64,000 nucleotides of DNA from Halogranum rubrum. Its GTDB lineage: Archaea > Halobacteriota > Halobacteria > Halobacteriales > Haloferacaceae. The notes below the pieces were generated by a model, which did not search any database, had not been told where the DNA came from, and saw only the letters and a program-made list of their open reading frames with translations. This document shows positions 506 to 3,476 of this stretch, piece by piece; the stretch's first letter is position 1; each line of letters starts with the position of its first letter. The stretch covers positions 1 through 64,000 of the forward strand of contig NZ_FOTC01000006.1 of the NCBI RefSeq assembly GCF_900114455.1, written 5' to 3'. The position numbers were made by a program, and so were the translations under genes.

Positions 506-551
506 TATAGCTGTGAACTATAGCTACAACATATAGTTAGATGCTATAGAT
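506..551. repeat. Iteron-like array 1: four 13-bp repeats
   Basis: TATAGCT at 506 and 519, TATAGTT at 532 and TATAGAT at 545 are spaced exactly 13 bp apart. The array precedes the parA gene and is matched by a second array at 658-716. Such arrays are typical binding sites for plasmid partition or replication proteins; the role here is inferred. Confidence 0.75.
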
Positions 552-559
552 AGTGACCG

Positions 560-615
560 TATCTCGGTGTCATAGTCGTAGTCTGATCACGAGTCCCACG
601 AGTACGACCGAGATA
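560..615. repeat. Inverted repeat between the two iteron arrays
   Basis: TATCTCGGT at 560-568 is the exact reverse complement of ACCGAGATA at 607-615. Just inside, GTCGTA (575-580) pairs with TACGAC (603-608), sharing bases with the outer arm. It sits centrally between the two arrays of 13-bp repeats, so the whole 506-716 stretch looks like one compound site. Confidence 0.6.
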
Positions 616-657
616 TACTATATTTAGACACGATAGTGGAATAAGTCCGGTGTATGT

Positions 658-716
658 TATAGCTATAAAGTATAGCTCGACATTATAGCTGGCAACTATA
701 GCTATCTTTTATGGCT
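658..716. repeat. Iteron-like array 2: five 13-bp repeats
   Basis: TATAGCT occurs at 658, 671, 684 and 697, then a degenerate TATGGCT at 710, all exactly 13 bp apart. The last copy ends 17 bp before the parA TATA box, so a bound protein could both act as a centromere complex and control parA. Confidence 0.8.
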
Positions 717-733
717 GTACTGTCTGACTTACC

Positions 734-740
734 TTTATAT
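734..740 (+). promoter_or_regulatory. TATA box of parA
   Basis: TTTATAT is centred about 29 bases before the parA ATG. This places the expected start of transcription almost at the start codon and supports a leaderless or nearly leaderless mRNA and the start at 766. Confidence 0.6.
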
Positions 741-765: not shown

Positions 766-1623
766 ATGCTCACGTATGCTCCAGTTTCGGAGGCTGGAGG
801 CGTCGGAAAGACGACCACGGCGGCGACGCTCGCAGCGAGCCACGCGCGTGCTGGACACGATGTCCTTGCCATCGATATGGATACGCAGAACGGGAGTCTC
901 ACGTACTTCTTCGGTCCAGACTACGACCGTGGTGATCCAAAGGTCGACAACCTCGTTCGGCATCTCGTCGGCCGCCCGAAGGGTGACTTTCGTGACCTCA
1001 CCATCGAAGTCGAGGGTGGAATCGACCTCGTCCCCTCACACAACATGCTCGAAGACCTACACGAGTTTCTGCTGAACGAGAAGCAGCAAGCCGAGAACTT
1101 CGGCGAGTCATACAGCATGTATCATCAACTCCACCGCGTGTTGCGTGATGCAAACGTTCGAGACGAGTACGACGTTATCATCGTCGACTCCGCCGGGAAA
1201 GCGGGACCGATCCTCTACAACGCACTGGTCGCCGTCAGAAACGTCGTTATCCCGTTCGAGGCGACTGCGAAAGGGCAGGAATCGATCGAAGGTCTCGACG
1301 ATCTCGTCGACGGGTTAGAGCAGAGTATCGACGTCGACGTCGGCGTGCTCGCCGTCCTCCCGATTGGCTACAAGGATACACGAGACCAGCGAGAGATCCT
1401 CCGGGAACTCCGCGAAAGCGGCTTCCCAGTCCCCGTCGTCATCGGCGAACGTGGCTCGCTGATGGAGGGGAGTTGGATGCAGCAGTGTAGCCCGTACACG
1501 TACGTCGAGAAACACCGCGATAGGAAGCGTGAATACGAACTCGAAACGCTCGACCAGTTCGACGAACTCGCTCGCTATCTCGAGAAAGAAGCCGGACTCG
1601 AAACTCCCGAGGTGACTGCATAA
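766..1623 (+). CDS. parA: ParA/Soj-type partition ATPase
   Basis: The 285-residue protein is a MinD/ParA-type P-loop ATPase that would segregate the replicon by nucleotide-dependent binding to DNA and to a partner on the centromere. The Walker A region near residues 9-17 reads EAGGVGKTT, followed by a switch segment with VLAIDMDTQNGS. The signature lysine of the classical deviant Walker A (KGGVGKT) is alanine here, a variant I recall in other haloarchaeal plasmid ParA proteins. A later VIIVDSAG matches the Walker B region. The TATA box at 734-740 fixes the start. The stop codon overlaps the next ATG by one base, so the two genes are translationally linked. The iteron arrays lie directly upstream. 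Confidence 0.88.
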   Translation: MLTYAPVSEAGGVGKTTTAATLAASHARAGHDVLAIDMDTQNGSLTYFFGPDYDRGDPKVDNLVRHLVGRPKGDFRDLTIEVEGGIDLVPSHNMLEDLHEFLLNEKQQAENFGESYSMYHQLHRVLRDANVRDEYDVIIVDSAGKAGPILYNALVAVRNVVIPFEATAKGQESIEGLDDLVDGLEQSIDVDVGVLAVLPIGYKDTRDQREILRELRESGFPVPVVIGERGSLMEGSWMQQCSPYTYVEKHRDRKREYELETLDQFDELARYLEKEAGLETPEVTA

Positions 1624-2060
1624 TGGGACTCAAATCAGGGTCGCGGGACGCTGGTCTCGACGACTCCGAAGACGACGTCGAACCGTCTGACGAGCAGATA
1701 CAGGAGGAGCCTCGAACTGAAGACGACGCGTCTCCGACCACCTCTCCATCCGAAACGACAGACGAACAGACCGAGACGGAGCCACGCTCCAAATCGGTCT
1801 CACAGCGTCCGACGATGGAGTCGATTCCGTACAAACTCCGGCGAGACAAGGTGAACGAAGGGCGAGAGCAAGTTCCGTATTTCCTTCGAGAGGAGATTAT
1901 CGAAGCCGAGGGCGAACTGCAAGACACACTCGAAACGCTACTGGGCGAGAGTGTCTACAAATCCGATTATCGAGAGGCTGCCATGGTTGTTGCACAGCGA
2001 AACCCGGAACTCATCGCAGAAGTACTGCGCGAGTGGGGTTACGACCTTGACGCGACGTAG
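1623..2060 (+). CDS. ParA-linked partner protein, candidate centromere-binding protein
   Basis: The 145-residue product has two parts. Residues 1 to about 62 are acidic, rich in Glu, Asp, Ser and Thr, and look disordered. The C-terminal part (about 63-145) looks folded and mixed in charge, with IPYKLRRDKVNEGREQ, PYFLREE and a helical ending VLREWGYDLDAT. I do not recognise a named domain, and it does not resemble canonical ParB. Its start overlaps the parA stop by one base, and no other gene is in this operon. The position is that of the small partner of a ParA system, so a role in binding the repeats at 506-716 is a reasonable inference. Direct evidence is lacking. Confidence 0.75.
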   Translation: MGLKSGSRDAGLDDSEDDVEPSDEQIQEEPRTEDDASPTTSPSETTDEQTETEPRSKSVSQRPTMESIPYKLRRDKVNEGREQVPYFLREEIIEAEGELQDTLETLLGESVYKSDYREAAMVVAQRNPELIAEVLREWGYDLDAT

Positions 2061-2159: not shown

Positions 2160-3476
2160 CTACTCCTGAGAGGTCCCTCTCTCGAACGCAGCAGCGAGTT
2201 GTTCTCGCATGTACTCTCGCCGTAACTTCCGCGCACGTGCGTCCGAGAGATAGTTCTGTAGGACTACGTCGGCGCTTGCACTTCCTTGTTCAGCCGCGAT
2301 TTCGTCGAGACTCCCGAGAACGACGTCGAGCGACGACGAATATGCGTCGTACCAGAACCGCCGTCCCATCTTTGGCGACGGAGATTCCCCACCGATTGTG
2401 TCGGGTAGCCCGGCACGATCGGCGAGTTGCTTAAATCGGTTCCAGACCGTCCAACGAGAAATGTGTCCGCCAGAAGCGTGTGGCGACGGAAACAGATAGC
2501 CGTCCCACTCGTCGCCGTCGGCAATCGCAGCGAGACAGTCTGCGAGAACATCCCGCCCGTAGAGAAGTGACACCTCACCGGGTCCGTTCTTCCGCTCTTC
2601 GAAGGCGATGACCGGAACGTCGCCGTCGTCCGGGTCGAGAACGAACTGGTGGGTGTGGAGTCGAGCGACCTCACCTGGTCGAAGCCCCCACGCGCAGAGC
2701 GCAAGCACGAGCAGTCGCTCTTCGTCGTCGACTGCCACAGTGTAGAGCGCCCGAACGTGCGCTGCGTCGAGACAGGGTGTATCGGCGTCGCTGCCACCGC
2801 TCCCGTTCGACCAGTCGAACTCGTCGTCGAGTCCGTCAGCCGGATTTATCGCAGCCCATTTCCGTCGAACCAGATGCGCATACCAGTTCGAGACCGCCAG
2901 ATGGATGCGACGTTTCGTCTGACCGCCGTCAAGTTCGTCGTGAAGGCGGTCGAAAGCCGCCCAGCAGCCATCGACTGCCTTGTATGCCGGCACGTCGCTC
3001 TCGCGACCGATGGGTGTCACGAGATCGTCTGTCTCGTTCTCGTCTCGGTAGGCACTCACGTACCGATTCAACCGATAACGGAGCGTCTCGATCGACGATT
3101 TGGCGAGTCCTTTCCGCTCGCGGCGTGACATCAGGAAAGATTCGAGTGCCTCGATGGTCCGTTCGTGCTCAGTTGCCCAGTCGTAGCCGGTCTCTGCAGG
3201 TTCGAGCCCCAGGTCTTCGGACCAGAAGTCTCCGAACGTGGTGTCGTGGTACGCCCGAAGCGCGTAGAGCAGCGGTCTGAAGTCGTGTTTACGCAACCAG
3301 TTGTGCGTTGGCTTCTCTCGTGTCGAATCGAGGCCGTCAGCCTCCAACGCCGGTGCGACGACCTCCCAATACGCGTCGACGAGTTCCTCGCGGTCGAGGA
3401 GCGTCCAAGAGACGTCGTCGGCATCGTTCCAGTCTCGGTTTTGAGACGAGTGTGCTGGCTCACTCACGGTCGGCAC
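2160..3476 (-). CDS. Tyrosine recombinase/integrase (XerC/D-like)
   Basis: The 438-residue protein has an N-terminal SAM-like core-binding region (about 115-230, with ERKGLAKSSIETLRYRLNRY) and a C-terminal catalytic domain (about 255-430). The first catalytic arginine lies in WGLRPGEVARLH, the second arginine region is GRRFWYDAY, and the likely nucleophile tyrosine is in QNYLSDARARK. The enzyme would cut and rejoin DNA at specific sites, for dimer resolution or integration. It faces the parA operon tail to tail with a gap of 99 bases. The start is GTG at 3476 or a second in-frame GTG nine bases inside; no in-frame ATG is close. Together with parA and the IS it marks this end as plasmid-like. 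Confidence 0.85.
   Translation of the reverse strand: MPTVSEPAHSSQNRDWNDADDVSWTLLDREELVDAYWEVVAPALEADGLDSTREKPTHNWLRKHDFRPLLYALRAYHDTTFGDFWSEDLGLEPAETGYDWATEHERTIEALESFLMSRRERKGLAKSSIETLRYRLNRYVSAYRDENETDDLVTPIGRESDVPAYKAVDGCWAAFDRLHDELDGGQTKRRIHLAVSNWYAHLVRRKWAAINPADGLDDEFDWSNGSGGSDADTPCLDAAHVRALYTVAVDDEERLLVLALCAWGLRPGEVARLHTHQFVLDPDDGDVPVIAFEERKNGPGEVSLLYGRDVLADCLAAIADGDEWDGYLFPSPHASGGHISRWTVWNRFKQLADRAGLPDTIGGESPSPKMGRRFWYDAYSSSLDVVLGSLDEIAAEQGSASADVVLQNYLSDARARKLRREYMREQLAAAFERGTSQE

Follow-up and report, generated by a model that had tools for sequence, protein, structure and literature searches.

In-register 13-bp repeat arrays ahead of a haloarchaeal parA operon: a probable centromere and operator of a type Ib-like partition family

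The appearance of archaeal plasmid centromeres is listed as an open question (PMC5120986), and the locus described here raises it in concrete form: what is the role of two arrays of short repeats that precede a parA gene on a haloarchaeal contig? An earlier note on this DNA had proposed a centromere or iteron origin that would double as an autoregulatory site. The window that we analysed comprises bases 1-64000 of the 191,719-bp contig C13, from a haloarchaeal genome of 4.57 Mb, and the features at issue lie close to its start:

506-551, plus strand: distal iteron array, four units (TATAGCT/TATAGTT/TATAGAT) in a 13-bp register
560-568/607-615, no strand: 9-bp inverted repeat between the arrays
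658-716, plus strand: promoter-proximal iteron array, five units (TATAGCT/TATGGCT) in a 13-bp register
721-728, plus strand: TGTCTGAC box, common to parA promoters across iteron clades
733-740, plus strand: TATA element of the parA promoter (sequence TTTATAT), of which TTTAT is kept in aligned promoters
766-1623, plus strand: parA, a 285-aa ParA/MinD-like ATPase (PF13614, E 3.5e-22)
1623-2060, plus strand: partner gene, 145 aa, overlapping the parA stop by 1 base and encoding a putative centromere-binding protein

The nine TATAGCT-like units recorded in the earlier note are indeed present in strict 13-bp register, beginning at 506, 519, 532 and 545 and at 658, 671, 684, 697 and 710. Searching for the two-unit pattern TATAGCTN6TATAGCT with up to three mismatches returned 16 matches in the 64-kb window, 15 of them inside 503-719, against 0.21 expected and a maximum of 2 per shuffle in 100 shuffles. 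Autocorrelation of 480-765 ranked periods 13, 26, 52 and 39 highest, the 13-bp value being reached by 0 of 500 shuffles. Across the whole 4.57-Mb genome, exact TATAGNTN6TATAGNT occurs only in the window arrays and in a 3-unit array (TATAGTT/TATAGGT, 13-bp register) on contig C11 (C11:182816-182848; L230:1501-1533). The latter adjoins an orc1/cdc6 gene that has its own ACACTTACAATCTGG-type repeats, and no ParA of the window's class was found on C11. An Rfam scan of 250-2200 gave no match.

The inverted repeat between the arrays, which the earlier note had taken as part of a compound site, does exist; it is absent from 15/15 close relatives and folds no better than shuffled sequence (z -1.1, with 33 of 200 shuffles equally good). 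Being unconserved, with folding at shuffle level, it was rejected as a functional element and is probably without function. As for the surroundings, an ORF at 2-271 resembles a transposase fragment at the contig end, and it is probably an insertion sequence at which the contig breaks off. Directly after the partner gene lies a convergent integrase-like gene (2160-3476), also the neighbour on plasmid pHLAC01. Elsewhere in the same genome, a fragment at C4:633-737 resembles a TATAGCT-clade partner (80% over 35 residues) and is possibly a decayed copy of the parA-partner operon.

The earlier note would have abandoned its reading had the arrays been missing from other replicons carrying the same gene pair; the opposite was found. 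By tblastn, the parA-partner pair is present on many haloarchaeal plasmids, and arrays accompany partner homologues on other replicons wherever a close relative has the operon intact: all 15 of the close relatives from annotated genomes (ParA 86-93% identical) have TATAGCT-type arrays directly upstream of parA, and most also have at least one distal array at variable distance. No clear array was seen at two loci with a broken parA (L041, L042). Among the homologous loci at large, a few others have no clear array either (L044, L292), and that of L090 is weak. The proximal array keeps its distance from the gene: in 17/27 TATAGCT-clade loci, its last unit begins at position -54 to -56 relative to the parA ATG.

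What is conserved more widely is the spacing. We examined the upstream DNA of homologous operons from the sampled haloarchaeal families, together with three viral contigs. The 155 distinct loci that encode a ParA of this class were scanned for periods of 6-40 bp: in 147 the top-ranking one is 13, 26 or 39, and in 149 the signal at 13 bp exceeds that of shuffles (p<=0.01); a further set of loci gives a best period of 13/26/39 in 27/29, such that nearly all of the ~180 related loci share the 13-bp spacing. The three viral contigs likewise have their strongest period at 13 bp or a multiple of it. Averaged over 105 loci, the best match at period 13 covers 25.75 of 39 positions versus 15.92 in shuffles, with most periods other than multiples of 13 near 16/39; within the parA gene, the best period is mostly some other value. 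Weaker autocorrelation peaks at 9, 17, 22, 30 and 35 bp (i.e., 13n +/- 4) are also seen at the 13-bp loci, for which the near-palindromic units account only in part.

The iteron sequence itself switches completely between clades while the 13-bp period persists. The units are TATAGCT, TGTTCATT, TCTWAGA, AGTMTAACT, CCTAAT and TCTGTWACAGA, depending on the clade, with further clades using AGTATAACT and AGTCTAACT, TGGCCAGT, TAGCTATAC or CATCAATG. In 5 of 6 clades, the units are dyad-symmetric (p<=0.022, plus strand only; e.g., TATAGCTATA, TATCTTAGATA and ATCTGTTACAGAT), suggesting one two-fold symmetric protein per unit; those of the large TGTTCATT clade are not palindromic by the same one-strand test. 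A sister ParA group with a distantly related partner has a best period of 12 or 24 in 12 of 13 partner-bearing loci. Some copies of this 12-bp class (L002, L134, L210-L221) sit on contigs of >1 Mb, apparently chromosomes, and three ParA loci that lack this partner (L005, L006, L224) show upstream repeats with a 9-bp period. It was thus misleading to regard the 13-bp spacing as an oddity among centromeres, as the earlier note did, given that it is the fixed rule of this family. Moreover, ribbon-helix-helix centromeres with a spacing off the 10.5-bp helical repeat are known, namely the contiguous 7-bp heptads of pSM19035.

The proximal array does end 17 bp before the parA TATA box (TATA at 734), and that gap holds the TGTCTGAC box, which the earlier note had overlooked. 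The TATA element lies ~26-32 bp before the ATG, the distance expected of a leaderless transcript. Exact GTCTGAC is found at -41 to -45 in 117/169 distinct partner-bearing loci, including 13/13 loci of the 12-bp group. The genome has three copies of the composite TGTCTGACN5TTTAT, all directly 5' of a parA whose partner is of this family, with three different iterons alongside; across 40 related genomes, 46 copies were counted, as opposed to one of the reversed control pattern. Of the sites inspected, 8 precede parA and 16 precede a DUF7518 gene. The composite (721-728 here; L238-L269) is an element common to several kinds of parA operon and to DUF7518 coiled-coil genes, haloarchaea-wide. CdrS was considered as the factor behind TGTCTGAC and not adopted; CdrS sites are reported from the main chromosome only (PMC8406309).

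Which protein might read such arrays? The partner is the candidate, with two segments of interest:

1623-1661, plus strand: partner N-terminal motif MGLKSGSRDAGLD, a candidate ParA-contact motif in which K4 and G6 are near-invariant in 41 sequences
1812-2057, plus strand: partner C-terminal domain, an extended segment and then helices, a putative ribbon-helix-helix DNA-binding domain

The 95 distinct partners are all built alike: the N-terminal motif, which in the family reads M(x)KSGxGxDPFADD, is joined by a low-complexity acidic linker to a C-terminal domain of ~80 residues, in which R, D/RE and WGY positions are conserved. The 145-aa protein has no credible relative in Pfam, NCBIfam, PHROG or the PDB, and a profile of 41 partners returned only one spurious match (E 0.26) among PDB chains. 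An AlphaFold2 monomer of the C-terminal domain shows the extended segment and then helices (mean pLDDT 80) with no paired strand, and Foldseek found it no PDB match with E<=0.001; the ribbon-helix-helix assignment thus rests on sequence pattern, namely an alternating extended segment (e.g., TVQLHLQ) followed by two helices, from which we infer this as the most likely fold. With its conserved N-terminal motif, acidic linker and putative ribbon-helix-helix domain, the partner resembles the centromere-binding proteins of type Ib systems. On a viral contig, a 284-aa protein (L140:1540-2391) ends in a partner-like C-terminal domain, with an N-terminal region ahead of it.

Covariation between partner and iteron points the same way. 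Residues 83/85/87/89 of the partner, which would face the DNA, read QPFR in the TATAGCT clade; the other clade with TAGCTATA-core units has QPFR or QPFQ there, even as the remainder of the domain is <50% identical between the two. Similarity at the putative DNA-facing strand residues correlates with iteron similarity once the rest of the domain is controlled for (partial rank correlation 0.35, versus 0.05 for the inward-facing residues of the strand), a correlation that is driven largely by one clade pair and is suggestive only, since the pairs are not independent.

Co-residence was examined in 45 genomes with at least two operons each. Operon pairs sharing a partner class number 2 of 73, versus 7.1 expected (P=0.017), and each of the two comes from a different draft genome, where the members of the pair are 95% identical. 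With the class threshold set at 50%, single linkage fuses unrelated classes and the figure is not meaningful. Such rarity is as expected if the partner class sets incompatibility.

Taken together, the two arrays very probably represent the centromere (parS-like) and operator of a haloarchaeal ParA-partner partition operon, and array and operon form a real, functional-looking feature, most likely of a type Ib-like haloarchaeal family. What the sequences show directly is the presence of the arrays and their co-conservation with the operon, the near-invariant period, the turnover of iteron sequence, the dyads in most clades and the conserved geometry of the promoter. From these, we infer DNA binding by the partner, autoregulation and a partition function of the operon. 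Of the earlier interpretation, the centromere and autoregulatory site is well supported by comparison, whereas the iteron origin is not sustained. Mechanistically, the C-terminal domain of the partner, most likely as a ribbon-helix-helix dimer, would bind each near-palindromic unit, with neighbouring dimers in contact every 13 bp; we propose that spacing would thus be set by the protein, and the sequence of the unit by its DNA-reading strand. The nucleoprotein array so formed would display the partner N-terminal motif to nucleoid-bound ParA, which would in turn move the plasmid, and occupation of the proximal array, ending just before the TGTCTGAC/TATA promoter, would repress the operon.

The nearest described systems are the bacterial type Ib modules (PMC5016525, PMC3235114) and SegAB (PMC5120986, PMC12284271). 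Like pSM19035 delta/omega, TP228 ParF-ParG-parH and pB171 par2, the operon encodes a small ParA with no evident HTH domain and a small downstream protein, which in type Ib has a mobile N-terminal tail and a C-terminal ribbon-helix-helix (predicted here); repeat arrays lie 5' of the operon and overlap the promoter region (PMC5016525, PMC3235114), and the upstream array found here would accordingly be assigned a centromere role. The 285-aa ParA falls within the ~190-310 residues of type Ib ParA/MinD ATPases that have no N-terminal HTH: its Pfam AAA_31/CbiA match starts at residue 7-10, no extra DNA-binding domain is evident, and Soj and further segregation ATPases are among its PDB relatives. 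Unlike type Ib, the partner has no detectable sequence relation to the known proteins, the units are 13-bp near-palindromes, and the family is confined to haloarchaea in the samples searched. The ParA P-loop also differs, reading SEAGGVGKTT with no signature lysine, where type Ib has the deviant Walker A motif KGGxxK[ST] that includes it. This position is A or S in 197/197 ParAs paired with this partner and K in 3/4 ParAs that lack it; one sub-clade has a P-loop that is also altered (SGGTYKT). Typical partition ParAs use the signature lysine, and its absence counts against a partition role. Because this lysine is missing and the partner fold is putative, we do not file the family under type Ib itself. 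A known exception is McdA, in which the signature lysine is likewise replaced (SGGQGKT, versus A/SGGVGKT here) (PMC9178275); unlike the present ParA, McdA positions carboxysomes and has no link to a centromere array.

SegAB (Sulfolobales and some Euryarchaeota) also pairs an archaeal ParA with an overlapping downstream gene, the product of which, SegB, is an archaea-specific DNA-binding protein with a ribbon-helix-helix domain (putative in the partner). Single SegB sites are 13-bp palindromes, TCTAGASTCTAGA (PMC12284271). Unlike the arrays here, these are scattered singly over the chromosome, with one conserved sequence and no in-register arrays; in the window's genome, a survey restricted to in-register unit pairs found only the operon and the one 3-unit array. 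The 41-partner profile detected no sequence similarity to SegB, and a relation at the level of the fold is possible. The AspA-ParB-ParA system of pNOB8 is similarly an archaeal plasmid partition system with a ParA and a small centromere-binding protein, with three proteins (PMC9178275) as opposed to a two-gene operon. As reported by Dam and Gerdes 1994 (cited in PMC5016525), groups of direct repeats flanking the par promoter constitute the type II centromere parC of R1. Groups of direct repeats at a par promoter are shared with our locus; the R1 system differs in its actin-like ParM motor, and the two arrays of our locus both lie on the upstream side of the promoter.

Might the arrays instead be a transcriptional operator alone, with the partner as parA autorepressor and no centromere role? 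The proximal array abuts the promoter at a fixed distance, and repeats 5' of an operon for a small DNA-binding protein would fit autorepression. However, several arrays per locus, some of them distal, with up to 12 units and a reach of >200 bp upstream, exceed the needs of repression, and the ParA homology and the rarity of same-class co-resident loci argue for more, making this account improbable. In type Ib systems, centromere and operator functions coincide; an operator-only role would thus be a subset of the centromere-operator reading.

More improbable still is that ParA itself or a host-coded protein reads the arrays, leaving the partner some other role. ParA sequence too diverges with iteron class, and the shared TGTCTGAC promoter box suggests a common factor at these promoters; against this, the ParA has no evident additional domain for DNA binding, the iterons are linked to putative strand residues of the partner, and ten different iteron sequences could hardly be read by a single host factor. 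Least credible is a replication origin, i.e., iterons bound by a Rep or Orc protein: direct repeats lie close to an A+T-rich stretch, an orc1/cdc6 gene is near the operon in one plasmid and the TATAGTT array on C11 adjoins orc1, but iteron class tracks the partner and not a Rep gene, no initiator gene lies beside the operon in pHLAC01 or in the window (cdc6 genes are at 87.6 and 117 kb on its contig), and the C11 origin carries its own repeats of another kind (ACACTTACAATCTGG). It is parA and partner with which the arrays are conserved; orc1/cdc6 adjoins them in some replicons only, and elsewhere none is nearby.

The centromere-operator reading would apply to a sizeable group of replicons. The partner is present in 251/392 sampled genomes of the class; a sample of 393 genomes from across the phylum gave 47 with a match, every one of them from the window's own order. 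In the open-licence PMC literature, we found neither the family nor 13-bp arrays at haloarchaeal parA genes described, and our comparisons point to a large family of archaeal DNA partition sites that is apparently undescribed.

Ultimately, a family found in those 251 genomes gains a testable rule for the position of the site, the unit used by each lineage and the expected reader protein, which would let haloarchaeal plasmid incompatibility groups be predicted from sequence. It also provides a natural series: a single protein family that has kept its spacing fixed through many changes of DNA target. We would go further only tentatively, giving slightly less than even weight to the possibility of a haloarchaeal partition class with a protein-set ruler (13 bp, or 12 bp in the sister group), freely exchangeable iterons and ParAs that all dispense with the signature lysine, in which operons, despite belonging to different incompatibility classes, have one TGTCTGAC box in common that also precedes DUF7518 genes, such that partition of the plasmid may be tied to a host programme through a shared host factor.
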